Assembly: GCF_022760175.1 (NCBI RefSeq) | Contig: NZ_CP094326.1 | Span: 3,770,804-3,834,803 of the forward strand | DNA from: Zhouia spongiae | GTDB lineage: Bacteria > Bacteroidota > Bacteroidia > Flavobacteriales > Flavobacteriaceae | DNA length: 64,000 nucleotides | Direction: 5' to 3' | Shown: one piece after another, positions 14,665-63,509 of the stretch | How the letters are laid out: each line of letters opens with the position of its first letter | Position numbering within the stretch: the first letter of the stretch is position 1 | Position numbers and translations under genes: made by a program | The notes under the pieces: model-generated | Told to the model about the DNA's origin: nothing | Database searches by the model: none | What the model saw: only the letters and a program-made list of their open reading frames with translations

Positions 14665-14671
14665 ACTTTTG
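14664..14671 (+). promoter_or_regulatory. candidate antisense -7 box at the locus A susC start codon
   Basis: TACTTTTG fits TAnnTTTG on the plus strand and begins in the susC start codon (CAT, 14662-14664). The best -33 candidate, TTTG at 14633-14636, is 27 nt away, longer than usual, so this copy is weaker than those of loci B and C. Confidence 0.3.
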
Positions 14672-14677
14672 TACGTT

Positions 14678-14761
14678 GTTAATTAATTTTTTAATTAGTT
14701 AATGTTTCAGAGGGGTTTTTAGGTTTGAATTGTGAGAGATCTGAACCAAAACCCTTTTTTT
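14678..14761 (+). ncRNA. predicted cis-antisense RNA over susC leader (locus A)
   Basis: An RNA starting just after the plus-strand box at 14664-14671 and ending in the T-run at 14755-14761 would be about 84 nt and fully complementary to the susC 5' leader. It is supported by the terminator at 14713-14761, which points away from any plus-strand gene, and by the same arrangement at loci B and C. It resembles DonS-type RNAs of Bacteroides by position. No expression evidence is available. Confidence 0.35.
14713..14761 (+). terminator. antisense intrinsic terminator between fecR and susC (locus A)
   Basis: The stem pairs GGGTTTT (14713-14719) with AAAACCC (14748-14754) and GGTT with AACC, with a two-base bulge and an 18-nt loop. 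It is followed on the plus strand by seven T. On the minus (operon) strand the T-run is a preceding A-run, so the structure fits antisense termination better than fecR termination. Confidence 0.5.
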
Positions 14762-32734: not shown

Positions 32735-32842
32735 ATGAATAATAACATGGTTATTTTTGATATTATAGTTCCATTTCTTTATGTGATTTTTTTCTTCCTG
32801 CTGATAAGAAGATTAAAATCTCAAACTACAGACTTAATGTAG
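32735..32842 (+). CDS. possible 35-residue single-pass membrane peptide
   Basis: The frame ATG 32735 to TAG 32840-32842 encodes an N-terminal MNNNMVIFD, one strong hydrophobic helix (IIVPFLYVIFFFLLI) and a basic RRLK tail, which is the layout of a small membrane peptide with the positive-inside end at the C-terminus. It is too short for standard gene calling. Its last 17 nt overlap the 3' end of the convergent TlpA gene. It could be chance in AT-rich DNA. Confidence 0.3.
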   Translation: MNNNMVIFDIIVPFLYVIFFFLLIRRLKSQTTDLM

Positions 32843-34202
32843 CTAATAAAGCTATCAACTTGTCATCTGACGGTCTTGGGGCATTTGCCATGACAATATT
32901 TCCCTGAGGATCAAGAAGAATAAAACGAGGGATACCTTTTATAAGATAATCCTGAACAAATTTTGAATTGAAGGCGTTATCTGCAAGTAGCTGAACGCCT
33001 CCCAAATTCTCTTTTTCAACCATTTGTCTCCATTTGTTACGGTCTTCCGGATTGTCAATAGATATACTTACAAATTCGATGTTTTTATCATGGTACCGGC
33101 TTTCTATTTTCTTTAAAAACGGGATTTCTCTTTTACAAGGCCCACACCAGGTAGCCCAGACATCAATATATAGGTATTTACCTTTTAAATCGCTTAAAGA
33201 TGTGGTACTGTTGTCAAAATTTTCATAATCTGTGAATTCAGGTGAAGGTTTTCCTTTTGCTACAATCTTTAAGGCATTATAATTTTTGGTTATTTCTTTG
33301 TTGTTCACCTCATTTGTACTCCCCTTTATATACTCCGCATAGTAATTCTCTACATCGGCAGTATAGGTAATACCATTTTTTGCCTTCTTATAGCAAATGA
33401 TGTTTTTAATTTTTTGATTGGATAACATATTCACCGCTTTTAAATACGCTACATCTTCATCAATATTTAAAGAAGCCGATATTTCTCTGGCTTGTTGCTG
33501 ACAATAACTATCAACCAGGCTGGAATAATCATATGAAAATATATAATCTTCACCGTTGTTATACGCAATCTCTTCCAGTTCTTTTAAAAACGCATCAGAC
33601 ACTCTGAAATCATTATTTTTGGTTTGGTAGATATGATTTACCTGATACTTATTTAAATTATTTAAAGTATAATATTTAATATTCCTCTTCTCTTTTTCTA
33701 TATAAGTCGCTGGAAAATATTTGGTATTCTTTAGCAATTTTAAAAGTTCCGATTCAAGCTTTTTTTGAGTTTCTTTAAAATCAACTTCATTCAGCAGATA
33801 TATGTTTTTCACATCACTTAGAACCTCACTTACTCTTTTTCTTTTTTGCAGCAAATAATTATTATAGGCTGCTCCTGCCCCGGTAAAAGTTACTGTATTA
33901 TTATAATCTTTAACATCAAAGGTCAGGTGAATATCATCACCGGATTCCAGGTACATATATGTAAGATGTCCTCCATAATATAACATTAGATTGTCTGCTT
34001 TAGTTCTTATGGTATCTACAAACGTTCCATCTTCATTAAGAGGAATATCATGAGAATATGAATAACATAAACTGGATAATCTTAATGTATTACTTTTCTT
34101 GTTCAAAACTTTGCCCTGTAAAATGATAAAATCATTTCTTTGTTCTTTAACACAAGAGGCCAGGATAAAAACCAAGGCACAGGTGTATAAGTATATTTTC
34201 AT
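32826..34202 (-). CDS. TlpA-family thiol-disulfide oxidoreductase lipoprotein (locus B, third copy)
   Basis: This 458-residue protein has a lipoprotein signal (Cys17, LASCVKE). It has the DUF4369-like N-terminal domain (~25-115), a helical linker, and a thioredoxin domain with WCGPC (C353, C356) and cis-Pro at GIPRFILLD. It is closely related to the proteins at 7167 and 34362, sharing YIDVWATWCGPC, EIPFLKKIE and APRPS. As last gene of the locus B operon it is 159 nt after its sibling. The clustering suggests tandem duplication, with cross-locus relatedness to locus A. Confidence 0.9.
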   Translation of the reverse strand: MKIYLYTCALVFILASCVKEQRNDFIILQGKVLNKKSNTLRLSSLCYSYSHDIPLNEDGTFVDTIRTKADNLMLYYGGHLTYMYLESGDDIHLTFDVKDYNNTVTFTGAGAAYNNYLLQKRKRVSEVLSDVKNIYLLNEVDFKETQKKLESELLKLLKNTKYFPATYIEKEKRNIKYYTLNNLNKYQVNHIYQTKNNDFRVSDAFLKELEEIAYNNGEDYIFSYDYSSLVDSYCQQQAREISASLNIDEDVAYLKAVNMLSNQKIKNIICYKKAKNGITYTADVENYYAEYIKGSTNEVNNKEITKNYNALKIVAKGKPSPEFTDYENFDNSTTSLSDLKGKYLYIDVWATWCGPCKREIPFLKKIESRYHDKNIEFVSISIDNPEDRNKWRQMVEKENLGGVQLLADNAFNSKFVQDYLIKGIPRFILLDPQGNIVMANAPRPSDDKLIALLATLSL

Positions 34203-34361
34203 AATTGTATTTTTTATGACATCGCTTCTATTGAAGCTTTCTATTATTATATAAACAGCTTTTCCAATAGCTGCAACATATTAAGCTTACCCTTTATCTG
34301 TTATAACTGCTTTTGCGAAAAAGGTATTCCTCATAAACAGGATTTTTCATGGAATAAAAAT

Positions 34362-35744
34362 CTATATACCCAGCTCATTAAACAGTTCAATCAAGCGAGG
34401 TGAAGAAGGACGCGGAGCACTTCGATTAACAATATTACCATCCGGATCTATCAAAATAAACTGTGGAATCCCAATGATTTGATACAATCTTATAAAATCT
34501 GATTTAAAAGCATTATCGGCAATTAACTGAATTCCTATTAATTCTTTTTCTTTTATCATGGTTTTCCATTTATCATACTCTTTTTTACTGTCTACAGAAA
34601 TACTTACAAACTCAATATTGTCGTTTTCATGATACTTTTTTTCAACTTCTTTTAGAAAAGGCATCTCCGCTTTGCAAGGCCCACACCAGGTTGCCCATAC
34701 ATCTATATAAACATACTTTCCTTTTAATTGATCGAGAGACGTGAAACCTCCGCTGTAATTTTCGTAATCAATAAACCCGGGAGATGGGTTTCCTTTCTCC
34801 AATACTTTTACTTCCTGATATTTTTCTGTAACCATATTTTTATGTTCTTGATTGGTAGACAGCTTTATGTAAGTATCGTAGCTTGGTTTAAAAATGTTAT
34901 CCAAAGCCAGTATTCCAAGAATTGATCTGTACAAAAGAGCATTACGAATATATTCCGATTTAAAACCGTTTGCTGATTCAAGTCTCGCAACGGAACTGGA
35001 AGAAGCTCCTGCCTTTACCAGGCTGTCTGTCTTTTCCCAGTGTTTATCATTAACTAACCTGTAGTAGTACACAGATGCTCTGTAATCGTTATCTATCCCA
35101 TAATCTATGTGCTTTGTTTCGCTTAAAAAATCATCGGACACCGTAAATTCAGGAGTCTTTGCATAATATCTATGCTCTCCCTGATAACGTGATAAACTAT
35201 AAATGTACCAGTAGTTTATATGCCGTTCCCGAAAATTTTTAAAGGCAGGGTTTAACTGCATAGAATCGTTTAAAAGAGTTAATAGCTCCTCTTTCTTTTC
35301 TATTAATGTACTTTTGAAATCCTTTTCCCCGAATAAACAGGTTTCCGGTTTTTGCTGATTCCATTCTTTTATTTTCTTATTAATGGCCTGCAACAAATTA
35401 TTTTCATCGGAGCCTTTGCCTTCAAACCTCAACGAGGTATCTAAATTATCGGCATCAAAGGTTATAAATAAATCATCCCCTCTAAAGAATACTATATCTA
35501 TAGATTTTCTATGTCCTGCTGAAAGCGTATACAAACCGGGTTCTATAGTAAGTGAATCCTGAAAACTGCCATCTTCCAGTAAAGCTATTTCATATTTAAA
35601 ATCACGATCATTATTTGTTAAAATAAGCTTATTAACTTCTCCTTTACTGGCAATTTTACCATTAATAACGGTATATGTTACCTTTGGTTCTTTATGACAT
35701 GCTGTAAAAACCAGAAAAGTCAGTATTATAATTATTTTTTTCAT
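34362..35744 (-). CDS. TlpA-family thiol-disulfide oxidoreductase lipoprotein (locus B, second copy)
   Basis: I place the start at the ATG at 35744 because MKKIIIILTFLVFTACHK is a proper lipoprotein signal; a further in-frame ATG at 35810 only adds a non-signal leader. The 460-residue product has the DUF4369-like beta domain (~25-120), a long helical linker and a TlpA domain with WCGPC (C354, C357) and IIGIPQFILID. It is a sibling of the proteins at 32826 and 7167, including the shared SAPRPSSP end motif. It follows the 35868 gene by 123 nt in the locus B operon. Confidence 0.9.
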   Translation of the reverse strand: MKKIIIILTFLVFTACHKEPKVTYTVINGKIASKGEVNKLILTNNDRDFKYEIALLEDGSFQDSLTIEPGLYTLSAGHRKSIDIVFFRGDDLFITFDADNLDTSLRFEGKGSDENNLLQAINKKIKEWNQQKPETCLFGEKDFKSTLIEKKEELLTLLNDSMQLNPAFKNFRERHINYWYIYSLSRYQGEHRYYAKTPEFTVSDDFLSETKHIDYGIDNDYRASVYYYRLVNDKHWEKTDSLVKAGASSSSVARLESANGFKSEYIRNALLYRSILGILALDNIFKPSYDTYIKLSTNQEHKNMVTEKYQEVKVLEKGNPSPGFIDYENYSGGFTSLDQLKGKYVYIDVWATWCGPCKAEMPFLKEVEKKYHENDNIEFVSISVDSKKEYDKWKTMIKEKELIGIQLIADNAFKSDFIRLYQIIGIPQFILIDPDGNIVNRSAPRPSSPRLIELFNELGI

Positions 35745-35867
35745 GTGTTTAAAATTTTCAACTCCCTGTAAATAAGATGTATGAATGGTCATATTCTTAA
35801 GATATTTCATCGCATTTGTTACCTCATGGATTCATTCGTAGTGATTTTGAAGAACGAACTCAAAAGA

Positions 35868-37106
35868 TCAAGATTTTGAGAATATGCTATCTAACATTTT
35901 ATACATATCTGCTTTTTCAGAGTTTTTGGAGCTGTAGATAATTTTCCCTGCCGGGTCTAACAATATTTTGGTTGGAAAGGAATTTACGTTAAAAGGTATT
36001 AAAAGGTTATGATCCCTGGTGGTCTGAATGTGCCTCCAGTTATACTCTCTTTCTTTTATTACTTCTTTCCACCTGTCGGAAGTGTCACCTGAATTAATTC
36101 CCAGCACCATAAAGTTCTTATCTGAATATTTATTGTAATATTCTTTTATTTTGGGCATTTCTCCCATACATGGACCGCACCAGGTCCCCCAATAATCGAT
36201 CAGGACATAATTTCCTTTTAAATCAGACAATCTGAATTCAGAACCATCGTCTGTATTTTTTGTGATAAATTCCGGAGCTTGCATCCCGATTCCGGTCTTT
36301 TCGACTGCTTCGAGCCTACTTTTAACCTCTTCGTAGAAAGGTGTTCCTGTTAATATGGCAGCATCAAAACGATCGAATAATTCTTTAGCCTGTTCGTAGG
36401 TAAAGGAATTACGATAATAAGCATCACTAAAAATATATGAAGCAGCAATCGATTTCGGGTGTGTTTTAATAAATGAGACCTTCATTTCCTTGACTTTGTC
36501 ATCAAGCTCACTTCGCTCTTTGTTCATTTTTTGAACTTCCCCGGCACTTAAGTTTTTATTGGTGCTTAAAGTAACAATTATCGAATCTGTTTTATTTATT
36601 AAGGGAAATATCTGCTTATTTATTTTGCCTAAATCATCATTTATACCATGCTGGTCCGATGGATATGCATTTACCATAAAATCATCGACTTTTCCGGAAT
36701 ATGTTATTTCAGCTCCCGGATAACCGATAAACCACATTCTACACATCTTTGCCTTAACAGAAGCTCTGTACACCTTACCTCCTAGCGTTACCTTATAGCT
36801 CCTTAGCGCTTCAGGTATGGTTATGTAGTAAAGTTTGTAATCACTTACTGTGTCTTTAAAAGTAAATTTTTCATCTTTTACCCATAAGGTATCTCTCCGA
36901 AAGCCATCTGGCCGGCTATCGTCTTTTTCAGTGTAAACAAGATATTCTGCTTCTAAATTTTCCAGATGTGCATTTAGGGTAAATGTCTCCTGTGCATTAA
37001 AAGTAATTATCTTAGATTTTTTTTCAATAGTAATATTATTTTGGCCAAAACTGGTATAACCAGTTACACCAACCAGTATATATAGTATAAAATTAGATTT
37101 CAGCAT
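35868..37106 (-). CDS. TlpA-family thiol-disulfide oxidoreductase (locus B, first copy)
   Basis: This 412-residue protein has a signal peptide (MLKSNFILYILVGVTGYTSFGQ) without a lipobox Cys, so it is probably soluble in the periplasm. The N-terminal DUF4369-like domain and helical middle (~165-280) precede the TlpA domain (~285-412), with WCGPC at C310 and C313 and NSFPTKILLD. It is most similar to the protein at 47618 in the decayed locus, where the same blocks recur (FPGADVKIQGKISDFM there, YPGAEITYSGKVDDFM here; LGINSGDT in both). It belongs to a different TlpA subgroup from its two downstream neighbours. Confidence 0.9.
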   Translation of the reverse strand: MLKSNFILYILVGVTGYTSFGQNNITIEKKSKIITFNAQETFTLNAHLENLEAEYLVYTEKDDSRPDGFRRDTLWVKDEKFTFKDTVSDYKLYYITIPEALRSYKVTLGGKVYRASVKAKMCRMWFIGYPGAEITYSGKVDDFMVNAYPSDQHGINDDLGKINKQIFPLINKTDSIIVTLSTNKNLSAGEVQKMNKERSELDDKVKEMKVSFIKTHPKSIAASYIFSDAYYRNSFTYEQAKELFDRFDAAILTGTPFYEEVKSRLEAVEKTGIGMQAPEFITKNTDDGSEFRLSDLKGNYVLIDYWGTWCGPCMGEMPKIKEYYNKYSDKNFMVLGINSGDTSDRWKEVIKEREYNWRHIQTTRDHNLLIPFNVNSFPTKILLDPAGKIIYSSKNSEKADMYKMLDSIFSKS

Positions 37107-37231: not shown

Positions 37232-38203
37232 TTAGTTATTAACTATAGTTACGCCTACAGGCCATGACAGCCCGTCTGTCCTGGTAAGCTCAACGGTACC
37301 GTATTCTCCGTAAAGGTCTGTAAAATTGTTGGTCCATTTTATTGTCAAAACTTCAGGGGTTATACTCACAACCTCCCAGTTGCTTTCATAGTATGTCTCT
37401 ACTGCCACTCTTGTGAGAATATTGGATTCAGCATCATAGGTTAATGTCCCTCCTCTAGGTCCGCTATAGGCTCCTCCAAAAGCCATATCATCAACATCAT
37501 AATAACCTTCTTCTTCTCCCGGCGTGAAAATTACGGTTCTTTTTGCTCCTACAACAACGCCTGTGTATGAATAGGTTATCGTTCCTGGGCCAACTTCGAC
37601 CCATGTAGCTTCAAACTCCCCCAGCCATGTATCTACGATCTTAAATTCTGCTAGAAAACCGAAAGTGCAATTGAAACCGGAGCAATTCTCTCTGGAATCA
37701 AATACAGTTCCATCTTTTCCTGTAATTACCCATTTAAATTCAAATAGATCTCCGGGCTTTATTTCTGTTCTGGATGATAAAAAGTCTCCTTGATAAAGAT
37801 CATACAACATGTCTTTGGTAACTGTAATCTGAAACATCTCCCCCGGATTATTGATAGTAGTTATTAATTTACCGGAATCGCCTCCCAGGTAATTATAAGA
37901 ATCATTTACTTCTTCCTCAATGAATGCATAAATATCTATTTTTGAGATATCCGAGGCCATTGCGCCGTTCGATTGGAAAGCTACATCAAATGTTAATTCA
38001 CTGACTCCCCAAAACTCTTCCCCAGTACTTTTATTCACATTGTAAATAAAGCTGGATTCGTCCCCTTGTGCTGTAAATTCGAGATTTGCAGTAGTTACCC
38101 AAGAAATGTTGGATGCATCAGGCACTATTATTTCTTCTACATCATCACAAGCCTGAAAAGAAAAAATGGAAACACATAATATTATTAAGATATATTTATT
38201 CAT
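37232..38203 (-). CDS. SusCD-associated surface lipoprotein, unknown family (locus B)
   Basis: This 323-residue protein has a lipoprotein signal (Cys ~19, FQACDDVEE) followed by an acidic stretch like a surface-export signal. The rest is beta-rich with many Trp, Tyr and Asp residues, probably two Ig-like/SusE-like domains: ISWVTTANLEFTAQ at the start, GDLFEFKWVITGKDGTVFD in the middle, and FGGAYSGPRGGTLTYDAES further on. A Cys pair (ENCSGFNC, ~176-181) could form a small disulfide loop. Its place just after susD (45 nt) suggests an accessory ligand-binding protein. I cannot name the family. Confidence 0.6.
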   Translation of the reverse strand: MNKYILIILCVSIFSFQACDDVEEIIVPDASNISWVTTANLEFTAQGDESSFIYNVNKSTGEEFWGVSELTFDVAFQSNGAMASDISKIDIYAFIEEEVNDSYNYLGGDSGKLITTINNPGEMFQITVTKDMLYDLYQGDFLSSRTEIKPGDLFEFKWVITGKDGTVFDSRENCSGFNCTFGFLAEFKIVDTWLGEFEATWVEVGPGTITYSYTGVVVGAKRTVIFTPGEEEGYYDVDDMAFGGAYSGPRGGTLTYDAESNILTRVAVETYYESNWEVVSITPEVLTIKWTNNFTDLYGEYGTVELTRTDGLSWPVGVTIVNN

Positions 38204-38248
38204 GTTCTTTTAATTTTGGATTATTAAAGCATGTCATCAAATGACTTC

Positions 38249-39691
38249 CTAATTTAAATTTGGATTTTGATCCCTGACCGACTGTGCTATTTTCACTACA
38301 TAACCATCATCTCCCGGTGCCAACGTAAAGGTCTCTCCTGTTATCGGATTTGTTCGCGTATAAGTAGGTACAACTTCGCCATACACATGATATCTTTTTT
38401 GGTCATAAAGATTCAGAGCTGACCCTGCCAATTCTTTACGTCTTTCATCCTTCACCAGTTGTAAGGTCGTTGTATTATCTGTATGGGTCAGCGGGGTAAA
38501 ATTCACAAGTCTATTTTCCAAAAGAGTGTTTAAAACATCAATAGCTCCTGCTCCATCACCCGTACGGACTTTAGCTTCTGCATTGGTTAACATCAACCTT
38601 GGAACGCTTAAACCATTACATCGTTCAGAACTTGCATACATGTATATATAATTCGGGGATACATCCACACCGGAGCTTGAGGTCTGTGTTGCAAATAAAT
38701 ACCATCTTCTGTCGTTATCCTTATCATAAAGGGCTTCCAGGTCAGGAGCATATAATTGAAAAGGATTGTTAAATCCCCAAGCGATATACCTGTTCCACAG
38801 TATTTCTTTATTGAGTGTCCCATAATACCAGTTATCTCCATTGTTATAACCTGACCATGGATTTGACGGATTGGCAAAATCTACTGTATTATAATCTTCC
38901 AGATAATCATACAGTGACAGGGCTGTATTTGAATAACCTAAGGCCTGGTCAAAATCACCCATATACAGGTAAACTTCCGAAAGTAATGCATAAATAGATG
39001 CTTTACCAGGTCGGAAATTAGCATAGGAATTAACTGCCTGATAATTATTTCCCAATAAGCGAAGTGCTTCATTAAGGTCGGTTAAAACCTGTTGATAGAC
39101 TTCCCCAACACTCGAACGGCTTAACTGCGCCTGTAAATCGACTGTTAATGGCATGGCCACACCCGGTAGATCCAGACTTGATGAATCGTAATGATGGGCA
39201 TATTCATTAACCGTCAAAAAATATTCAAAAGCTCGTTGCGCCATAGCTTCAGCTTTAAGGATGTTTCTTTTAGAAGCATCAAAATTTCCTGGTTTGGCAT
39301 CATCAACTTCTTCCAGAATGTAGTTCATGACATGAATGTATTGATAAAGGCCATTATAATCATTATCTGATACTGCTGGGTCAAACAGGTCGTGTTGCCA
39401 GGTATATGCATTTACACTCGGTGTGCTATTGGAGATTGTATTAAAGCTTGCCTGGTTATGGTACACATCCGGATCCATAAAGCGTGTATTGTTTCCAACA
39501 CCTGAACCAGTTCCCCTGATTATGGCATAATCCTGTAACATCTTATCGTAATCTTCCAGAGTTGAAGGAATGATATAACCCGTAGGTTCTACATCTAAGA
39601 AATCATCAGGGCTTTGACATGCCGATAATGTCAAAAATGTCAGTAATATGTATATATGTCTTTTTTTCATCGTATTACTCTTTAATTTCAT
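38249..39691 (-). CDS. SusD/RagB-family nutrient-binding lipoprotein (locus B)
   Basis: The open frame reaches 39802 and would overlap susC by 100 nt. The credible starts are ATG 39691 (used here) or ATG 39670, which begins the lipoprotein signal MKKRHIYILLTFLTLSACQ exactly. The mature protein has the SusD/RagB layout, with the N-terminal DFLDVEPTGYIIPSTLEDYDKML motif, TPR helices (EAMAQRAFEYFLTVNEYAHHY), and a C-terminal RagB region ending VRDQNPNLN. It caps the SusC of locus B and sits 12-33 nt after it. The decayed susD at 45551 belongs to the same subgroup (PSTLEDYDKMLQDY compared with PKTIEQLESLLNNY). Confidence 0.93.
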   Translation of the reverse strand: MKLKSNTMKKRHIYILLTFLTLSACQSPDDFLDVEPTGYIIPSTLEDYDKMLQDYAIIRGTGSGVGNNTRFMDPDVYHNQASFNTISNSTPSVNAYTWQHDLFDPAVSDNDYNGLYQYIHVMNYILEEVDDAKPGNFDASKRNILKAEAMAQRAFEYFLTVNEYAHHYDSSSLDLPGVAMPLTVDLQAQLSRSSVGEVYQQVLTDLNEALRLLGNNYQAVNSYANFRPGKASIYALLSEVYLYMGDFDQALGYSNTALSLYDYLEDYNTVDFANPSNPWSGYNNGDNWYYGTLNKEILWNRYIAWGFNNPFQLYAPDLEALYDKDNDRRWYLFATQTSSSGVDVSPNYIYMYASSERCNGLSVPRLMLTNAEAKVRTGDGAGAIDVLNTLLENRLVNFTPLTHTDNTTTLQLVKDERRKELAGSALNLYDQKRYHVYGEVVPTYTRTNPITGETFTLAPGDDGYVVKIAQSVRDQNPNLN

Positions 39692-39702
39692 AATCTTACT
39701 TA

Positions 39703-42700
39703 TTAAAATGAAGCTCTCAAGCCAAAAGTATAACGCGTTAAATAGGTATAAGCTTCGCTTGTTGGGGCTATAGGATCTACCCCTATGTCGTTGGCTACCC
39801 ACAGGAACGGATTGGTTACCTGCATACTGAAACGCAAGTTTTTGAAAAAGGTAGGTTTCAATAATTTTGACGGCATCGTATATCCCAAAATAATATCCTG
39901 TACTCTTATATAATCTCCTTTATGCACATTACGTGATGATTGATTCCAGATACGATGCATGGTAGCTGTATCGTTCCTATTCTCAGATAATCCAGTAATA
40001 GGATTTACTCCGTTATAGAATATCTTAGGTACATCGGTAGTCGCTTCATCCCCTGGCTGCATCCATCGATTGCCCCATTCTTCATGTACCCTGATATTGC
40101 TAAAATCATATTCAAAATTATTATAGGTACCATTTCCGGTCGAAGCATAATTGTAGGACATTTTAAATATATAGTCCGCCTGATAGTTCATATTTACGGT
40201 AAGGTCTATACCTTTGTAGTTCAGTGTTGTAGATAAACCACCATAGTGCTTTGGCACCCTTGATCCTGCATATTTCAATTCTTCAATAGCTACATTTCCC
40301 CGCCATGACCTTGTATTCCCATCTGCATCATACAGCAATACCTCTCCGTTGTTGTCCAATCCTGCAAAATTATACGCATAAGTAGCTCCGATTGGCTTGC
40401 CTTCTTCATACGCATTGGTTCCTGTATAAGTATCTGCCGTCGGTGTGGTGTTGATCTTGGCTGTGGTTAGAGTATTCTTATTGTAATTCAAATTAGCCCT
40501 TACCGACCAGTTAAAATCTTCAGATCGAATCAGATCGGCATTTAATAGCAACTCTACCCCTTTATTATCTATATCTGCATAATTAACAGATGCTCTCGTC
40601 CAACCCACGGTAGGGTCAAGAGGTCTTGAAGTATAAACATCCGTACTTTTTTTAGTGTAATAATCTAAGCTACCTGACAGCCTGTTATTGAAAAAAGCAA
40701 AATCAAGTCCAAAATTGGTTGTAGCTGTTTCTTCCCATTTGAGATCAGGGTTTGCAGGCTGGTTTAATACCAGACTATTGTATTGATTTCCTACATTTAT
40801 ATTACGTACACGTGCTGTTGCCTCTGGATACACCCCTATCAGACTGTTTCCTCCCAACCCATAGGTAGCCCTGAACTTCAAACGATCTATCCAATCTGTA
40901 TTTGCCAGAAAGGGTTCATTAGTAGCATCCCATGCGGCACCAACAGACCATAGTGGCTTGTACCTAAAATCCGGATTACTCCCAAAAATATTGGCCTGGT
41001 CAATCCTAAAACTACCATTCAGGGTATATTTTTGTTTGTATGTATATCCTAAATTGGAGAAGACACTTACAAATCGATTATCCTGATTATTAACATCAAA
41101 AACTAACGCATCATAATATCTGGTAAAACGTCCGCCAGTCCAGTTAGTCAATCTGTAGTTTACCAAATCAGCCTCGTTAATCGGCAAATACGTGGTAGAT
41201 CCTTTATCATAGCCAAATTGCCTGTTTCGCGAAAATTCTGTAAATCTTCTGGAATATTCACCACCGGCAAATATATCTAATTGATGGTCATTCCAGGTTT
41301 TATCCCAGTTAATGGTATTTTTAAAAACCCACCCTTTCGAGTACGTACGTTCCTGTAAATACTCCGAGCCCGGAGGTATCCCATACTGATAGTTTCCGGT
41401 ATCCGGATTCATTATATAATAATCATTAACTGTATTACGCCATGACGGTAAATTCATGGACTTAAAAGCATCTAAATCATTGGTGTTACGCTCATACCTG
41501 AATGAACTACTAACTGTCAGGTCTTTAAACAATTCTATATCCAGTTTAAAATCAGCTCTTATATCAACAAGTGTACTGCTATTATCTACATTTCGTTGCT
41601 CTTCAAGTGCATTGTATGTGTATGGTGCGTTAACCAGGCTCTCTCTTTCTTTAGACATCCAAGGATTCCAATGGTAGTATTTTTGTATATATTGCCCATC
41701 TTCATCAACCAACTGATCATATGGCTGTGCCAATGTAACCATTTCAATAGGATTCCCAAATCCGAATTGTGAGGTTAAATAATTATCCTTTTCCTTTCTT
41801 AAAGCGGCTGTCATTCCAGCGGTAAATGATATTTTATCATTAAAATCGAAAGTATTGCGTAGATTCATAGTAATACGATCATTATCATCTCCCTTCACTT
41901 GTCCTGATCTATCAACATAAGATAGTGAACCAAAGAATGAATTGTTATCTCCTCCTCCGGAAAGCGACAAGTTATATGTGGTTTGTATTGCATTTCTTAA
42001 GAGATATTTTTCCCAATCTTCATTAATGTTCCTTTGTTTAAGTTCATTAATGTATCGGTCAAATGTATTTTGAGACCAAACTTCTCCATCCGGTGACAGT
42101 CCATTTCTATACAGATATGCCAAATGAAGGTCGTTAATACTTCGTGTACCTATGGCCAATCCGTTTATATCGGTCCATTTTTTATCAATGAATTCCTGAT
42201 CCAGTGCAATTTCCCCGGCAGTAGTCATCAAATTAAGATTGTTCAAATCTACCTTTTCTTCCATCTCTACAAACGCTGAAAAATCGACCCTTAAAGGGGT
42301 GTTCTTACCTCCTCTTTTCGTCACAATGACTACAACACCATTGGCAGCTCTGGATCCCCAAATTGATGATGCAGCTGCATCTTTTAGTATCGTAACGGTC
42401 TCTACATCTTCCGGATTAATAGACTCCAGATTTAGCTGATCTGCTAAAGGGAATCCATCTACAACGACAAGCGGATTCGCATTAATACTTAAAATAGAGC
42501 TTCTCCCCCTGATCTCAAAAGCACCGCCAAATGCAGGGTTCGTATTTAAACCTGTTGTTTGCCCCATGATACGGTCCATTATATTCGTACTTCCGGGACG
42601 TTGTTGTATCTGAGTTTCTCCAATTTGAGTAAAAGACCCGGCTGTTCTTTCCTTGGAGAGGTTTTGATAGCCTGTTACAATTACCTCACTTAAACTCGTA

Positions 42701-43311
42701 GCTTCAGTTTCCATGACCAGATTAATAACCTCCGATTTAATCACTTGTTTTTCAACGGTTTTCAATCCTACATAAGAATATATCAATCTAGCACTATTGC
42801 CTCTGACTCTGATGGTGTATTTCCCGTCAAAATCAGTTTCCGTACCATTACCAGTATCTTTTTGTACAATAGAAACCCCCGGCATAGGAACTCCTTCTGA
42901 ATCGACTATTGTTCCGGAAATCACAAAAATTCTTTGTTGCAATACCGGTGCCGGCTTCTCTTGTAAGTAAATATTGTTCTGTTTTCTTAAATATGTAGTA
43001 TTTGTTCCGGAAAACAGCATTTCCAAAACATTTTCCAAGGACTCTTGTTTTACATCAATACTTATCACTCTAGAGAGGTCAACAACAGAAGTCTGAAAGA
43101 AAAACTTATAATCACTTGCAGATTCAATCTCATCTAAAACACGACCGACATTTTGGTTCTTAACAGAAATTGTAAGCTTGTTCTGTGAAAAAGTTGTATT
43201 AGCCTGCAATATAAAAATGGCGGCCATTGTAAAGAGTAAAGAGAGCTTCATTTTTAAATCAAATTTTACAATAAAAGAGCTACCCCTCTTGTTATCAAGA
43301 AGATTTTTCAT
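39703..43311 (-). CDS. SusC/RagA-family TonB-dependent transporter with STN domain (locus B)
   Basis: This is a 1202-residue outer-membrane importer. The signal helix (~21-43, KLSLLFTMAAIFILQANTTF) follows a basic leader. The STN domain (~48-115) has NVGRVLDEIESASDYKFFF, and the carboxypeptidase-like domain is at ~128-205. A SEVIVTGYQNLSKERTAGSF segment precedes the plug (~225-335, LKDAAASSIWGSRAANGVVVIV), and the barrel extends to the C-terminal F. The ERTAGSF type is frequent in SusC proteins coded with TlpA genes. Its leader carries an antisense promoter and terminator. Confidence 0.95.
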   Translation of the reverse strand: MKNLLDNKRGSSFIVKFDLKMKLSLLFTMAAIFILQANTTFSQNKLTISVKNQNVGRVLDEIESASDYKFFFQTSVVDLSRVISIDVKQESLENVLEMLFSGTNTTYLRKQNNIYLQEKPAPVLQQRIFVISGTIVDSEGVPMPGVSIVQKDTGNGTETDFDGKYTIRVRGNSARLIYSYVGLKTVEKQVIKSEVINLVMETEATSLSEVIVTGYQNLSKERTAGSFTQIGETQIQQRPGSTNIMDRIMGQTTGLNTNPAFGGAFEIRGRSSILSINANPLVVVDGFPLADQLNLESINPEDVETVTILKDAAASSIWGSRAANGVVVIVTKRGGKNTPLRVDFSAFVEMEEKVDLNNLNLMTTAGEIALDQEFIDKKWTDINGLAIGTRSINDLHLAYLYRNGLSPDGEVWSQNTFDRYINELKQRNINEDWEKYLLRNAIQTTYNLSLSGGGDNNSFFGSLSYVDRSGQVKGDDNDRITMNLRNTFDFNDKISFTAGMTAALRKEKDNYLTSQFGFGNPIEMVTLAQPYDQLVDEDGQYIQKYYHWNPWMSKERESLVNAPYTYNALEEQRNVDNSSTLVDIRADFKLDIELFKDLTVSSSFRYERNTNDLDAFKSMNLPSWRNTVNDYYIMNPDTGNYQYGIPPGSEYLQERTYSKGWVFKNTINWDKTWNDHQLDIFAGGEYSRRFTEFSRNRQFGYDKGSTTYLPINEADLVNYRLTNWTGGRFTRYYDALVFDVNNQDNRFVSVFSNLGYTYKQKYTLNGSFRIDQANIFGSNPDFRYKPLWSVGAAWDATNEPFLANTDWIDRLKFRATYGLGGNSLIGVYPEATARVRNINVGNQYNSLVLNQPANPDLKWEETATTNFGLDFAFFNNRLSGSLDYYTKKSTDVYTSRPLDPTVGWTRASVNYADIDNKGVELLLNADLIRSEDFNWSVRANLNYNKNTLTTAKINTTPTADTYTGTNAYEEGKPIGATYAYNFAGLDNNGEVLLYDADGNTRSWRGNVAIEELKYAGSRVPKHYGGLSTTLNYKGIDLTVNMNYQADYIFKMSYNYASTGNGTYNNFEYDFSNIRVHEEWGNRWMQPGDEATTDVPKIFYNGVNPITGLSENRNDTATMHRIWNQSSRNVHKGDYIRVQDIILGYTMPSKLLKPTFFKNLRFSMQVTNPFLWVANDIGVDPIAPTSEAYTYLTRYTFGLRASF

Positions 43312-43318
43312 ACATTTA
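43289..43318 (+). promoter_or_regulatory. predicted antisense promoter at the susC start (locus B)
   Basis: TTG (43289-43291), exactly 19 nt, then TACATTTA (43311-43318), one base off TAnnTTTG. The -7 box begins in the susC start codon (CAT 43309-43311), as at locus C. Confidence 0.4.
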
Positions 43319-43324
43319 AATTGT

Positions 43325-43392
43325 TTTTGTGGTTAATTATTTTTTGACCATTCTTCATCTCGGGAGATGCGGCAACATTTCCCGATTTTTTT
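43325..43392 (+). ncRNA. predicted cis-antisense RNA over susC leader (locus B)
   Basis: From the predicted promoter to the end of the T-run is about 68 nt, complementary to the susC leader and containing a ten-pair terminator. No plus-strand gene exists upstream that the terminator could serve. Same arrangement as at loci A and C. Confidence 0.45.
43360..43392 (+). terminator. antisense intrinsic terminator between fecR and susC (locus B)
   Basis: The stem runs from 43360-43369 (TCGGGAGATG) to 43376-43385 (CATTTCCCGA): ten pairs with one G-U, a six-base loop and seven T following (43386-43392). This is a textbook plus-strand intrinsic terminator within an otherwise minus-strand operon. Confidence 0.7.
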
Positions 43393-43439
43393 CAGTAGTT
43401 TAAGATGTATTTTTTTTCATTTTCAGTAAAAGAGTTTAG

Positions 43440-44600
43440 TTAGTTGATTATAATTGTATTATCTTTTGAAATTTTGTAGTCTACGCTATATATCTCATTA
43501 AAATAATCCAGCACTTCTTGTATTGTTTCCTCCTGTAAATTTATATGTGCATTGAAATTTTCTGTTGCCAACACTTCATTATTATTCACTATAGTCACAT
43601 TATAAAAACGCTCTAATTTCCTCAATATATTTTCGAAAGATTCATTTCTGAATATCACTTCACCATGAGTCCATGAGGTATACAAACTTGTATTTACAGC
43701 CTTCACATTAAGGTTCTTGATAATTTTATCATAAATCCCCATCAATCCCGGATCTAACACCAAATGTTTATGTTCCTCCTGTGCCCCATCTTCTGCATAC
43801 ATTGCAACAGCCCCTTCAACTAATGTTACATTTATCTCGTCATCCTCTTCATACGATGACACATTGAAGGTAGTTCCTAAAACCCTGACATCTACCAAAC
43901 CGGTATTAACGATAAAAGGGCTTAGAGTATCTCTTACAACGTCAAAATAGGCTTCCCCCTCCAAATACACCCGACGGTTCTCTCCATCGGTAAAATGAAC
44001 AGGATACCTTAATGAAGTTCCGGCATTCAGAAACACCCTGGTTCCATCTGATAAAGTGATATTAAATCGTCTGCCAAATGGCACAAGAATTTCGTTATAA
44101 CTATGATCATTGTTTGCCAATGAATCGCTATAAATCAATTCCCCCTTTTGGTGATTTCCAATAACGATTCCCTGATCATTATAGACAATTCCTTCAGAAA
44201 TCTCATCGAGGTTTTTAATACTCCCATCTCCGGTTTTAAGAATAATTGCTTCTTCCGGGACAATAATAATATTGTCTGCCTTAAAGTTATTATAAACCCC
44301 ATAGCCTATACTTAAAACTACTGTAACTACCGCAGCATATTTAAGTACCCCGAATATTCTCCGTTTAGTACCTTCCTTCTTATCTGATCTGATTTTTATT
44401 AGTAAATCGCTCTTTATCTTCTTTAAATCCTGATTTACAGAAACCACATCAAGAAGATAGTCGGTGCCTACATATTCCTCGAATATTTTTTTGTTTTTGG
44501 AACCCTCAGCGATCCATTCATGTAATAGCTCTTTGTCTTCCAAAGAAGCATTACCATTTAAAAATTTAACAATTATATTTTCAACTTTAGTTTTATCCAT
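43440..44600 (-). CDS. FecR-family anti-sigma factor (locus B)
   Basis: This 386-residue protein has a cytoplasmic anti-sigma segment (~1-80), one TM helix (~88-105, VLKYAAVVTVVLSIGYGVY), and a periplasmic FecR domain (~165-285) with GEAYFDVV and RVLGTTFNVSSYEEDD. The C-terminal DUF4974 domain (~315-386) begins VIFRNESFENILRKLERFYNV. It probably holds the sigma factor coded by the divergent gene at 44718, 117 nt away, until SusC signals. Unlike locus A, sigma and fecR are on opposite strands here. Confidence 0.93.
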   Translation of the reverse strand: MDKTKVENIIVKFLNGNASLEDKELLHEWIAEGSKNKKIFEEYVGTDYLLDVVSVNQDLKKIKSDLLIKIRSDKKEGTKRRIFGVLKYAAVVTVVLSIGYGVYNNFKADNIIIVPEEAIILKTGDGSIKNLDEISEGIVYNDQGIVIGNHQKGELIYSDSLANNDHSYNEILVPFGRRFNITLSDGTRVFLNAGTSLRYPVHFTDGENRRVYLEGEAYFDVVRDTLSPFIVNTGLVDVRVLGTTFNVSSYEEDDEINVTLVEGAVAMYAEDGAQEEHKHLVLDPGLMGIYDKIIKNLNVKAVNTSLYTSWTHGEVIFRNESFENILRKLERFYNVTIVNNNEVLATENFNAHINLQEETIQEVLDYFNEIYSVDYKISKDNTIIIN

Positions 44601-44717
44601 CTAAATTTTCACCATTTACAATTATTACGTTCCAAAAAATTAATACCCTATGTTTTTTTTATTATTTTTTTCATATTTACCTAACATTATTTTAATTTAC
44701 CACTAAATTCTCAATTT

Positions 44718-45332
44718 ATGGAGGTTGGTTCTACCAATTCTAAAAATTTAATTATATACCTGCGTAGAGGAGATGAATTAGCATATAATTTGCTGGTCGA
44801 CATCTTTTACAGCAAATTAAAAATCTATGCAAAAAAACTGACCTCAGACGATCAAATCGCCAGTGATATTGTTCAGAATGTTTTTATCAGAACCTGGGAA
44901 TATAGAGAACGATTAAATTCCGAACTCAATCTTAAAAATTATTTATATAAATCCGTTTATAACGAATTCATCAATCAATATAGAAAAGACAAGCCCTTTC
45001 TTCCTCTTGAAAAAGAATATATCACTTCATTAAATGATTTTGCGGAGAACAAAACAGAGGAAGATCTCAACACCCTTATAGAATTATTAAATAAAGAAAT
45101 AGACAAACTGCCTCCTAAATGCCGCCAGGTATTTAAACTAAGTAAAGAGGAAGGGCTTACCAATGAAGAAATTGCCAGCTATCTTAATGTTTCCACCAAA
45201 AATGTAGAATCATTAATAACAAGAGCATACAAAACCCTCAGATCCGGTTTAAAGGGAAAAAGAAAAATATTCCTGATATTTATATCGAGCTTTATTAAAA
45301 AGACATTTTTAAAAAGAACGAATGTCTTGTAA
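44718..45332 (+). CDS. ECF RNA polymerase sigma factor (locus B, divergent)
   Basis: This 204-residue protein has region 2 (~20-90) with DQIASDIVQNVFIRTWEYRE and the promoter-melting part LYKSVYNEFINQYRK, and region 4 (~125-180) with LPPKCRQVFKLSKEEGLTNEEIASYLNVS. The C-terminus is hydrophobic then basic (KIFLIFISSFIKK). It is the only plus-strand gene of locus B and shares a 117-nt control region with fecR. A short AAGACATT/AATGTCTT inverted repeat overlaps the end of the gene (45300-45328). The sequence beyond is a dispersed repeat, so its original downstream neighbour may be lost. Confidence 0.92.
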   Translation: MEVGSTNSKNLIIYLRRGDELAYNLLVDIFYSKLKIYAKKLTSDDQIASDIVQNVFIRTWEYRERLNSELNLKNYLYKSVYNEFINQYRKDKPFLPLEKEYITSLNDFAENKTEEDLNTLIELLNKEIDKLPPKCRQVFKLSKEEGLTNEEIASYLNVSTKNVESLITRAYKTLRSGLKGKRKIFLIFISSFIKKTFLKRTNVL

Positions 45333-45336
45333 CTTG

Positions 45337-45435
45337 ACTCGATAATCGGGATTTATCCGTATAGCTACGCTTGTCCTTGTGAAATATTCCTAAAAGAATT
45401 TCATTGGACTTGCTTCGAAATGTTTTGTCCATGTG
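45337..45435 (+). repeat. dispersed intergenic repeat, copy at the susD pseudogene
   Basis: It starts ACTCGATAATCGGGATTTAT and ends near CATGTG. It matches 47286-47380 (same orientation) and 50912-51024 (opposite), sharing CGATAATCGGG, CCTTGT.AAATA, AATTTCA..GGACTTGC.TCGAAATGTTTTG. It lies between sigma B and the truncated susD. Confidence 0.75.
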
Positions 45436-45550
45436 CGTGCTGGCCTGCAAGGTCGTTTCCTTCTTTGTACGATAATGCTTTTTCATTTTTTTCAGGAATA
45501 CCTTTTCTCAAAAGTGAACTTTATGCCATTATTGTCGAAAAACCTCCTCT

Positions 45551-46981
45551 ATAGTACCCAAAACGATAGAACAGCTGGAAAGCTTGTTGAATAACTATAG
45601 TACGTTTGCCAGTGAAGGAGCTAACGAACTAACCTTTGGGACAGATGATTATGGTCTGATTACCGACTTATACGATGCCAAATCCAGTATTTATCCGGTT
45701 AATATGGTCGAATTTGCAACATGGGATAAAGACTATTTACCGGATTACGACCGCCCATACTGGCCTGCTGAATGGAGAAAAATATTTACGGCTAATTTAA
45801 TACTGGCCAACCTTTCCAAAGTTGAGGGTAGTCAGGAACTAAAATAAAAAATTGAAGCCGAATGCTACTTTATCAGGGCCTATAGTTATTATCAGCTTGC
45901 CAATGTTTACTGTTTGCCTTTTACCGAGGCAAATAAAGACGAACTGGGGTTGCCTCTAAAAGAGCTGACCAGTTTTGAGGAATCTGTAGAAAGGGCAACA
46001 CTGGGGCAAACACAAGCCTTCATTGAAGCCGATTTAATGGAAGCACTCGAGTTGAATTCTTCATTGAAATTGGTTAATGGTAAATACCGTACCTGGCGTG
46101 CCAGTACTGCAGCAGTTAATGCTTTTGCTGCCAGGTATTACCTTTCCTTACGCGATTATGAAAAAGCTCAAACCTATGCAGAAAAGGCACTAAGCGAGCA
46201 TGATCTGCTAAGAGATTATAATACAGGGATGCGGTATTCCGATATTATCTCTCAGGTAACGATATTTAATCCCGATGCAACAACCGTTACTTTGGAGTAT
46301 CCTTATACACACGATAATCAAACTGATCCCACCGATATGTTGGAGTGGGAAGAATCCTATTTTTTGAGGTATTTAAATAATCCGTTCTGGTATTATATCC
46401 CATCACAGGATCTATTGGATTTATACGATCATACTTACGACCTAAGATACAAATATCATATGGTAGAACATTATTCTTATGACAGAGGCGCCACAAACCC
46501 ACCATACGATCATCCCGGCTACATCTTTTTCTTTAAGGATAAGATATTGAACGGGCCATCTGTTCCGGAGATGCTGCTCATCAAAGCAGAGTGTCAGATA
46601 CGACAAGGCTCCTGGCAACAGGGAATCCAAACGGCAAATCAATTGAGGGCAGTCAGAATGGATGTTAATGCTCCGGCAAATGTGATCAACCTAAGCGCTG
46701 CTACGCAGGCAGAAGCCTTGACCAAAGTATTGGAAGAACGCCGCAGGGAAATGCCATTTACCATGCGTTGGTACGATGTCAGGCGCTATAATAACAACAG
46801 CGAAGCCTCTGACGATGTTGTAATGACCAGAACGTTCTATCCGTATAATGCCAATGCTGTTTTGGGTAATGAAACACCTGTTACTTACGAATTGGAAAAA
46901 AATTCGAGAAGGTTTGCAAATCCGATACCTAATACAGATATATTATCCTCGAACGGGGTAATAAAACAAAACGAATATTAA
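45551..46981 (+). pseudogene. decayed susD: 5' end lost and one in-frame stop
   Basis: The frame is SusD-like throughout (PKTIEQLESLLNNYSTF ... ECYFIRAYSYYQLANVYCLPF ... VLEERRREMPFTMRWYDVRRY ... RRFANPIPNTDI). It has no signal peptide: a stop at 45515-45517 and repeat-derived sequence replace the first ~35 residues. A TAA (45845-45847) after SQELK interrupts the frame, which then resumes in the same phase with KIEAECYF. No susC is left beside it. It is of the same subgroup as the locus B SusD and is followed by TlpA genes like those of locus B. I regard it as non-functional. Confidence 0.85.
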
Positions 46982-47014
46982 AATATTTGAGTTAGTTGAT
47001 AGTTATATTGTAAT

Positions 47015-47039
47015 GTCCCGGCTTACAAAACGCCGGGAC
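47015..47039 (+). terminator. GC-rich hairpin after the susD remnant
   Basis: A perfect 8-bp stem GTCCCGGC / GCCGGGAC with a 9-nt loop, 34 nt after the stop. There is no T-run, so it is only a possible terminator. Confidence 0.45.
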
Positions 47040-47285
47040 TCCTTCGGGAATACCATAGAGGTTACTTCAAAGAGCACCCCATACTATCTATTATCTCTTT
47101 TGATAATTATTAAATAACGTGAGTTCGATTAAGATCTCCATTATTATATAAGAATTGCCAATAACATAAATGGTTGTTTCCCTGAACGTCGTCCTGAATG
47201 TACGGGCAGGCAGTCGAAAGGTTTTTAAAAGGTAGCATTTCGTTTAGGTTTCGACAACGCTCAACCTGACATTTGACATCATTTT

Positions 47286-47380
47286 ACTCGATAATCGGGG
47301 TTTATCCCGTATAGCTTATCCTTGTAAAATACTGCTAATGGAATTTCACGGGACTTGCATCGAAATGTTTTGCCCATGTG
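47286..47380 (+). repeat. dispersed intergenic repeat, second plus-strand copy
   Basis: It starts ACTCGATAATCGGGGTTTAT and ends TGCCCATGTG. It is closely similar to 45337-45435 and, inverted, to 50912-51024. With the copy at 45337 it brackets the susD pseudogene. Confidence 0.75.
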
Positions 47381-47617
47381 CATGCTGCGCCACGAAGTAT
47401 CTTACTGATGAACAACCACATACAATATTAACTGTATTAAAACTCACATTAAAGAATATATATATATGAAATGAGCATAAACAAAATTAATTATTTGCAT
47501 ACCAACCGACATAATTAATTTTTTTGTGCGAAGGCACAGCGGTTATATCTATGCAAATAATTTTTAATAAGATAAAAATTTAAATAGATGAAACGAATAT
47601 TAACAAATTTTAAATGT

Positions 47618-48808
47618 ATGAAAAGAACTGTCCATTTATCGCTTTTCCTTTTGATAACGACCATTTTTTTATCCTGTGATGGCGCGCCTGAGAAGCAAAA
47701 GCAAACGAATGAATTTAAGATATCAGGAGAGATCAAAAAGTTTTCAGGAACCCTTTTCTTCAGGCATCCTGATAAAGAATATTCAAAAGAGACCAAGCCT
47801 GATTCCATAACAGTTAAAGACGGTCTGTTCGAATATAGCGATACCATTTCAAAATTAAGTTTAATAAGGGCTTATACCGATTTTAATGATACTGACAACA
47901 AGCTTTTTAAAAAAGCCAAAGGCGGAGGCTATTACCCTGTAAAGTCAATGTACCTGATGTTTTTCGCCTTTCCGGGTGCAGATGTTAAGATACAGGGAAA
48001 AATATCCGACTTTATGGATGCCTATCCGTCGGGAGATGAATATAATAATAGCCTGGGAGCTATAAACAAAATAGCTTATCCCAACTTTAATAAAAGTGTC
48101 AATTTAATGGTCCAAAGTTCTTTTGAAGAAGATTCCCTAAAAATAAAGGAGTTGCAAAAAGAAGCAGAGGAGATCAGTGAGTTGGGCAACCAACAAAGAA
48201 TAGCTTTCATAAAACATAATCCTAATACCTTAGGGGCTGTTTGGTACCTGGACGATATGGTAATGAGAAGCCAGGTAAGCGATTCTGCTGCTTTTGCCCT
48301 TTTCAAGGAAATCCCTGAGAATATACACAATAATGATATTTATCAGGGATTAAAAACACTCATGGAAGCTATAGCTGCCACAAGTGAAGGTGCTACTGTG
48401 CCCGAGATCAATACCACGGCCACACTCGATGGTTCTGCTTTTAATTTAGAATCGTACAGAGGAAAATATGTTTTGATAGATTTTTGGGGTATCTGGTGCG
48501 GGCCTTGTGTGGCAGAAATGCCCAGAGTAAAAGAGTTTCAGGAAAAACATAAAGACAAATTAATTGTTTTGGGTATCAACTCCGGAGATACCAAGGAGAA
48601 AATTCGAAAATTTGTAGATGAAAAGGGTTATGACTGGAAACAATTAATGAGCGATAAGGCCAACACTTCCGATAATTTTGTGAACCGATTTAATGTAAAA
48701 GGCTTCCCTACAAAGTTTATAATAGACCCTAAAGGTAAAATCGTAAAACGATATGTAGGTTCGGGCGAAGAAGCTTTTGACTTGCTGGAAGAGATGCTCG
48801 GTCAATGA
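47618..48808 (+). CDS. TlpA-family thiol-disulfide oxidoreductase lipoprotein (decayed locus)
   Basis: The ATG at 47618 begins a good lipoprotein signal (MKRTVHLSLFLLITTIFLSCD); an ATG ten codons upstream at 47588 is the alternative. The N-terminal DUF4369-like domain has YPVKSMYLMFFAFPGADVKIQG. A helical part follows, then the TlpA domain with WCGPC (C304, C307 from 47588) in the unusual context FWGIWCGPC, and KGFPTKFIID. It is a paralogue of the protein at 35868. It seems intact although the neighbouring susD is dead and no susC is present, so it may serve another transporter or be on its way to loss. Confidence 0.88.
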   Translation: MKRTVHLSLFLLITTIFLSCDGAPEKQKQTNEFKISGEIKKFSGTLFFRHPDKEYSKETKPDSITVKDGLFEYSDTISKLSLIRAYTDFNDTDNKLFKKAKGGGYYPVKSMYLMFFAFPGADVKIQGKISDFMDAYPSGDEYNNSLGAINKIAYPNFNKSVNLMVQSSFEEDSLKIKELQKEAEEISELGNQQRIAFIKHNPNTLGAVWYLDDMVMRSQVSDSAAFALFKEIPENIHNNDIYQGLKTLMEAIAATSEGATVPEINTTATLDGSAFNLESYRGKYVLIDFWGIWCGPCVAEMPRVKEFQEKHKDKLIVLGINSGDTKEKIRKFVDEKGYDWKQLMSDKANTSDNFVNRFNVKGFPTKFIIDPKGKIVKRYVGSGEEAFDLLEEMLGQ

Positions 48809-63413: not shown

Positions 63414-63420
63414 ACATTTG
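63391..63420 (+). promoter_or_regulatory. predicted antisense promoter at the susC start (locus C)
   Basis: TTG (63391-63393), exactly 19 nt, then TACATTTG (63413-63420), a perfect TAnnTTTG. The -7 box begins in the susC start codon (CAT 63411-63413). Confidence 0.5.
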
Positions 63421-63426
63421 AAATTG

Positions 63427-63509
63427 GTAAGTTAATATTACAGTTAATTTGCTCTCAAGGGGAATAGACCTGTGACTTTGGACGGTTGGCAGGTGCTGTT
63501 CCCTTTTCT
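63427..63509 (+). ncRNA. predicted cis-antisense RNA over susC leader (locus C)
   Basis: From the promoter to the T-rich end is about 83 nt, complementary to the fecR-susC gap. This is the best-supported of the three copies on the promoter side, with a full-consensus -7 box. Position matches DonS-type antisense RNAs of Bacteroides polysaccharide loci. Confidence 0.45.

Follow-up and report, generated by a model that had tools for sequence, protein, structure and literature searches.

Gene content of locus B

The window analysed here is the whole 64,000-nt stretch of the Zhouia spongiae genome in which the locus lies, and all own-genome counts come from the one complete 4.04-Mb genome that contains it. 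On the minus strand, locus B carries a fecR anti-sigma gene (43440-44600; Pfam FecR and FecR_C), a susC gene with an N-terminal STN domain (39703-43311; STN, CarbopepD_reg_2 and Plug) and a susD gene (38249-39802; SusD-like_3 and SusD_RagB). An ECF sigma factor gene (44718-45332, plus strand; Sigma70_r2 and Sigma70_r4_2) is divergent from fecR.

The 128-nt gap between fecR and susC holds an antisense unit on the plus strand. Its parts are a -7-like promoter box, TACATTTA (43311-43318), the first T of which is the complement of the A in the susC ATG; a TTG 19 nt before this box (43289-43291), proposed as a -33 element; an AU-rich 5' hairpin of 8 pairs (43329-43351); a terminator hairpin of 10 pairs, TCGGGAGATG-CGGCAA-CATTTCCCGA (43360-43385); and a T7 tract (43386-43392). 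The hairpin and T tract have the sequence and position that the first-pass annotation had given them. The predicted product, with both ends inferred, is a plus-strand RNA of ~68 nt (43325-43392). At the Rfam gathering score the sole match in the window is one tRNA, and the antisense unit is unmatched.

Three of the four genes after susD are thioredoxin/AhpC-like, the other has no Pfam match, and none is a glycoside hydrolase (0/4). Given these thioredoxin/AhpC-like genes, locus B is a SusCD locus and probably not a glycan locus. Such genes (7167-8546, 32826-37106, 53866-55026 and 56333-57535; some with DUF4369) lie near all three susC genes of the window, accounting for 1 of 2 scanned genes at locus A, 3 of 4 at locus B and 2 of 3 at locus C, and all three loci look like SusCD-thioredoxin loci more than glycan loci. 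Among named genomes, the closest relatives of SusC B come from Mangrovimonas and Aestuariibaculum, both members of the Flavobacteriaceae, which sets the host apart from gut Bacteroides. On the far side of the sigma gene, a plus-strand ORF (45914-46981) matches SusD_RagB at its C-terminal end and SusD-like_3 in part and below the cut-off, with no ORF of susC size beside it on that strand; it is possibly a susD remnant or has a misplaced start.

A promoter-like box at the susC start codon

In the Z. spongiae genome, 18 FecR_C loci precede susC, and five more FecR_C matches sit in susC-length frames. The sequence TAnnTTTG occurs at exactly the same place as the locus B box in 8 of the 18 fecR-linked susC genes and in none of 256 control ORFs drawn from 400 kb of the same genome (Fisher p 6e-11); for the looser form TAnnTTT[GA] the counts are 13/18 and 5/256 (p 1e-14). 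The box therefore reflects more than the sequence preference around start codons, and translation-start bias as its origin was rejected on the strength of the control ORFs.

For a broader comparison, 140 fecR ORFs were reduced to 130 distinct junctions: 18 from the own genome, 17 from named genomes and 95 from further relatives. The 95, all from Flavobacteriaceae, derive from 100 regions that were among the best-scoring matches listed and so do not form a random set; one match near a contig end was passed over. Over the 130 junctions the loose box is present in 95 and the strict form in 66. Two observations on the box count against reading the unit as an antisense RNA gene: the loose form is missing at the first ATG of 35 junctions, some of which perhaps reflect a misplaced start, and the box of locus B is the weaker variant ending in A, without the consensus G.

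The first-pass annotation had read a complete promoter, TTG-N19-TACATTTA, at this site. The comparison retains the half at the start codon and drops the other, since TTG at that spacing was found in only 4 of the 95 box-bearing junctions; as a conserved -33 element it was rejected, and its presence at locus B is probably chance. Boxes are likewise placed at the susC start codons of locus A (TACTTTTG, 14664-14671, plus strand) and locus C (TACATTTG, 63413-63420, plus strand), bearing out the earlier observation that the position is identical at the three loci and the hairpins unlike. On the sense strand, TAnnTTTG occurs five times in 130 junctions x 300 nt upstream of susC (a raw count without a chance expectation), a scarcity consistent with susC being driven by another sigma factor.

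An antisense terminator in most fecR-susC junctions

The locus B hairpin has the most pairs among the 8 terminator-like sites in 38000-48000, although the region shows no overall enrichment of sites of this class (8 versus a shuffle mean of 6.7). In the own genome 16 of 18 fecR-susC junctions contain an antisense terminator with an energy of -12 kcal/mol or below, compared with 6 of 52 control co-directional gaps. These 16 are the junctions with gaps of at least 60 nt, and the two without a terminator have gaps of 20 and 22 nt. Across the larger set, 121 of the 130 junctions have gaps of at least 60 nt, and at a threshold of -10 kcal/mol or better 113 of these contain an antisense terminator and 12 a sense-oriented one. 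The 17 junctions in which the antisense terminator is missing count against the antisense-RNA reading as well; nine of them have gaps below 60 nt and the other eight do not. One junction (L298) has a strict box, TATTTTTG, no antisense terminator and a strong sense-oriented terminator (-15.0 kcal/mol).

It had been noted that no plus-strand gene precedes the locus B terminator, and that the unit would lose its meaning if the hairpin merely stopped a long plus-strand transcript. We found no plus-strand ORF of at least 100 aa between 32594 and 44718, which leaves ~10 kb upstream of the hairpin without one; plus-strand ORFs in this interval reach at most 73 aa in a listing down to 30 aa. Moreover, the distance from the box to the end of the hairpin is 70-105 nt in nearly all box-bearing junctions. 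This limited range, together with the lack of a preceding ORF, gives no support to a terminator serving a long transcript.

Two leader types and their loop motifs

The terminator hairpins were sorted into two types by a mechanical rule that mis-sorts a few (L114 was counted as type II although its hairpin looks like type I). Type I, to which locus B belongs, has a short stem and a loop that is 6 nt long in 46 of 62 hairpins; these loops have the form UU...G in 26, C...AA in 8 and others in 28. The locus B loop, CGGCAA, is one of the eight C...AA loops and is the reverse complement of the common UUnnnG. Type II hairpins are long and include those of locus A (14710-14757, plus strand; -15.1 kcal/mol) and locus C (63457-63506, plus strand; -24.7 kcal/mol; loop motif CTTTGGACGG). 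They, too, show a motif in both orientations, CTTT-n-CGG in 9 of 51 and its reverse complement CCG-n-AAA-n-G in 8 of 51, one of which (L311) is doubtful.

We considered whether these loops are an ordinary terminator feature and rejected it: among 31 ordinary terminator loops from the own genome, UUnnnG is absent, CnnnAA occurs once (CGCAAA) and one loop is a 4-nt UUCG, so that 1/31 fits as against 34/62 for type I. When only ordinary loops of 5-8 nt are counted, as for type I, 1 of 16 fits. A motif in both orientations is expected if sense and antisense loops meet, or for a DNA palindrome, and is unexpected for a protein site on one RNA. As evidence on recognition, the two-orientation loops are an observation that falls short of proof.

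Stem pairing and folding of the antisense strand

Among relatives, every one of the 10 pairs of the type I stem shows changes on both sides while the stem remains paired, the kind of compensatory change that had been proposed as a check. This was reached by 1 of 500 shuffles, and neither the 96 double-changed cells nor the covariation score was reached by any of 500; the type I subset comprised 45 of 62 hairpins (those with a 6-nt loop, with one duplicate left out). The evidence from stem pairing is partly circular, since the unit was located by its terminator and the hairpins were chosen for pairing. The 5' part, defined as the stretch between box and terminator, was not chosen for folding.

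The predicted locus B RNA folds into two hairpins with an MFE of -22.3 kcal/mol and a z-score of -5.08, and its 5' part has z -3.3. The complement, that is, the sense leader, also folds somewhat (z -2.62), which counts against reading it as open. Folding of the 5' part could be assessed for 51 of 62 type I and 42 of 51 type II junctions, the others having no box or a short 5' part. Relative to dinucleotide shuffles, the antisense strand gave a mean z of -2.86 for type I (41 of 51 below -2) and -3.28 for type II (35 of 42 below -2). The sense-strand means were -0.57 for type I and +0.40 for type II; the type I sense parts fold a little better than their shuffles (p 0.004), which counts against a fully open message. 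Control 30-nt windows located 8-38 nt upstream of 52 other genes had a mean z of -0.32, with 14 below -1.

GU pairs make up 21-23% of antisense-strand pairs and 4-6% of sense-strand pairs; in the message, the wobble pairs that fold the antisense RNA turn into A-C mismatches. G and U are more abundant on the antisense strand than on the sense strand, which inflates the raw energy gap between strands, and the z-scores correct for that. RNAalifold on 48 type I RNAs recovered the terminator hairpin as the only common structure; the 5' hairpins vary in sequence and length and are missed by this method, so each sequence was folded singly and compared with its shuffles. Read most simply, these results describe a folded antisense RNA opposite a more open leader.

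Together, these comparisons indicate that the unit is an antisense promoter-terminator under selection, with expression predicted from sequence. The proposal that it has a selected function and is not a recent copy is upheld by the terminators (16/18 and 113/121), a box above background bias, re-paired stems and antisense folding.

Distribution beyond the family

To the Flavobacteriaceae-rich set we added a phylum-wide sample of 43 junctions (21 from other orders of the class, 18 from other classes and 4 from the same family), after dropping 14 fecR ORFs without susC nearby. In the 21 junctions from other orders, an antisense terminator is present in 14 and a sense terminator in 5, the loose box lies at the first ATG in 5, box and terminator coincide in 4, and in 10 the antisense strand of the 5' part has a z of -2 or below. 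The 18 junctions from other classes include 4 with a terminator and 1 with both box and terminator; the four same-family junctions include 2 with both. The single case from another class (L357, genome G123) has a terminator of -23 kcal/mol and a 5' part with z -4.5 on the antisense and -2.9 on the sense strand. By these counts, the antisense unit as defined in sequence is a frequent feature of Flavobacteriaceae, occurs in other Bacteroidia as well and is rare elsewhere in this small sample.

The unit does not need fecR. We took 30 of the 63 Plug matches of the own genome as loci; among 21 Plug-domain genes that have no fecR linked to them, three carry the unit. In these three (L024, L026 and L034) an antisense TAnnTTTG lies at the start codon, along with an antisense terminator whose hairpin is of another kind.

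Leader type and the regulatory region of SusC

SusC B is a mosaic. Its residues 126-1202 are 60-79% identical to the Mangrovimonas and Aestuariibaculum relatives (L054-L056), and residues 1-125, comprising the signal peptide and STN domain, only 20-26%. The FecR proteins of these relatives are 28-31% identical to FecR B and 38-42% identical to FecR of locus A; the relatives have type II leaders and locus B a type I leader. From this sequence pattern, the regulatory block at locus B (susC, 39703-43311) has apparently been exchanged near the STN/CarbopepD border.

A similar pattern emerged from 126 of the 130 junctions, 111 of them with an assigned leader type. The nearest neighbour had the same leader type in 101 of 111 cases by STN, 103 by FecR and 72 by the SusC body after STN; for the barrel the count was 62 of 94. 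Shuffling the labels gave means of 55-56 (barrel 47) and maxima of 74-75 (barrel 66); body and barrel counts lie above the shuffle mean, so some leader-type signal resides there too. In paired queries against the body, STN prevailed 34 to 5 and FecR 37 to 6 (p ~2e-6, uncorrected for kinship). Four pairs (L214/L303, L218/L254, L007/L252 and L247/L294) have similar bodies, unlike leader types and weakly similar STN domains. Judged by sequence neighbours, leader type thus appears to go more closely with FecR and STN than with the body of the transporter. The RNA gene is flanked by fecR on one side and the STN-coding part on the other, so its co-inheritance with both may be hitch-hiking: it may travel simply because these two must stay together.

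A model for the antisense unit

We consider it probable, at roughly three chances in four, that the unit is a short antisense RNA gene working like the DonS-like SusC-leader RNAs of Bacteroides. A housekeeping promoter (sigma-ABfr type), with its -7 box over the susC start codon, would make the ~68-nt RNA; the two-hairpin transcript would end at its own terminator before fecR and would pair with the part of the open susC leader that begins ~14 nt and ends ~81 nt before the start codon. This assumes that the sense and antisense RNAs overlap, the susC transcription start being taken to lie far enough upstream. Most likely, this pairing would block ribosome loading and/or expose the message to RNase, and susC would be silent. 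Once the ECF sigma factor is released via SusC-STN and FecR, the leader would outnumber the antisense RNA, and the excess of one over the other would act as a threshold switch for the importer. Transcription, both RNA ends, pairing and repression are steps that we infer, and Northern-detected DonS-like RNAs and repression by DonS in Bacteroides lend them support.

The competing explanation that survives best, although we regard it as unlikely, is that polymerase initiating at the start codon interferes with sense transcription through collision or occlusion, the RNA being a by-product. Interference of this kind would suit a promoter-like box right over the start codon and a terminator downstream within a limited distance range, but has no need of a 5' part selected for folding on the antisense strand. 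That the box is susC translation-start bias and the hairpin an insulator, keeping stray plus-strand transcription out of fecR and the sigma gene, is very unlikely. The locus B sigma gene does sit downstream on the plus strand, and start regions in this genome are A/T-rich; against this stand the excess of boxes over control ORFs (13/18 versus 5/256), the structured 5' part and the UU...G or C...AA loops of 34/62 type I hairpins, found in 1/31 ordinary terminators.

We give scant credence to an RNA acting mainly in trans, for example on sister susC leaders with similar hairpins. Type I hairpins are alike within a genome, L008 and L010 share the loop UUGGCG, and units were sought only opposite susC starts, which leaves room for orphan copies elsewhere. 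Yet identical loops occur in 1 of 135 pairs within genomes and 30 of 1296 between them (permutation P 0.18), revealing neither cross-talk nor avoidance and no significant diversification of loops within genomes. Lastly, a DNA operator for which the RNA is irrelevant, suggested by palindromic stems and loops in both orientations, is barely credible when stem sequences vary with pairing kept, T tracts lie on one side (113 versus 12) and the second hairpin folds mainly on one strand.

Beyond the cis-acting antisense RNA, we offer a wider model more tentatively, judging it possible but rather less than an even chance. FecR, the antisense RNA and the signal/STN region may form an exchangeable cassette that, across Bacteroidia and beyond glycan loci, recombines at about the STN/CarbopepD border onto different transporter bodies. 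G-U pairs in its two hairpins would keep the antisense RNA folded and the message open; together with terminator loops in either orientation, these hairpins could form a loop-to-open-leader or loop-loop recognition system, each importer remaining silent until its own sigma factor is released.

Significance and comparison with known systems

Among the open-licence papers listed in our searches we found no account of such RNAs in Flavobacteriaceae or of FecR/STN cassette exchange. New here are the frequency of the unit in Flavobacteriaceae and its presence in other Bacteroidia and in a SusCD-thioredoxin locus; the two hairpins, and loop motifs that occur in either orientation; and the apparent tendency of leader type to follow FecR and STN over the transporter body, with what looks like a cassette swap at locus B. 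The comparison yields an architecture that can be tested, in which a -7 box sits at the start codon, both hairpins are under selection on the antisense strand and the message is open, and would extend SusC-leader antisense RNAs from gut Bacteroides to Flavobacteriaceae, other Bacteroidia and seemingly non-glycan SusCD loci. If leader type truly goes with FecR and STN, the RNA would be part of the phylum's sigma/anti-sigma signalling in nutrient import, and one block exchange could change a transporter's regulation.

As described in papers citing Cao et al. (2016, J Bacteriol 198:2410), B. fragilis has short RNAs antisense to susC homologues at 15 loci, some of which repress their cognate locus; these RNAs are reported to be 78-128 nt long and to lie at host-glycan loci. 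DonS is reported to repress its locus in B. fragilis (PMC7366714, PMC10994844, PMC11697453) by a mechanism described as unknown (PMC11697453). For B. thetaiotaomicron, reports count 10 and later 32 annotated antisense RNAs associated with polysaccharide utilization loci, in DonS-like orientation, several validated by Northern blot and some anticorrelated with susC (PMC7366714, PMC10994844). A flavobacterial transcriptome study reports transcription antisense to coding genes from 287 regions, with DonS cited as a point of departure for further work (PMC9723704); these regions may include such SusC-leader RNAs.

Like DonS-like RNAs, the locus B unit lies opposite the start and leader of a susC homologue; the likeness to the B. 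thetaiotaomicron RNAs is, by description, one of orientation opposite susC. A promoter of their own, with TAnnTTTG at -7 and TTTG at -33, is expected of DonS-like RNAs; here the -7 element is conserved and the -33 element is not. An intrinsic terminator of its own, which we assume to be a trait of the kind, is present at locus B. The predicted length of ~68 nt, based on an assumed 5' end, falls below the 78-128 nt reported in the citing papers. Locus B has thioredoxin-like genes and does not share the association with host-glycan loci, which we do not hold to be essential, and its host belongs to a different bacterial family from the Bacteroides hosts of DonS.

Those plasmid antisense RNAs that start by loop-loop contact resemble the locus B unit as short structured antisense RNAs over a translation start; the UUnnnG loop fits the YUNR U-turn motif only in part, and contact through it is putative. 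On this comparison, the antisense unit is best placed with the SusC-leader antisense RNAs: it resembles the DonS-like RNAs by its arrangement, kinship to DonS itself being a separate matter.
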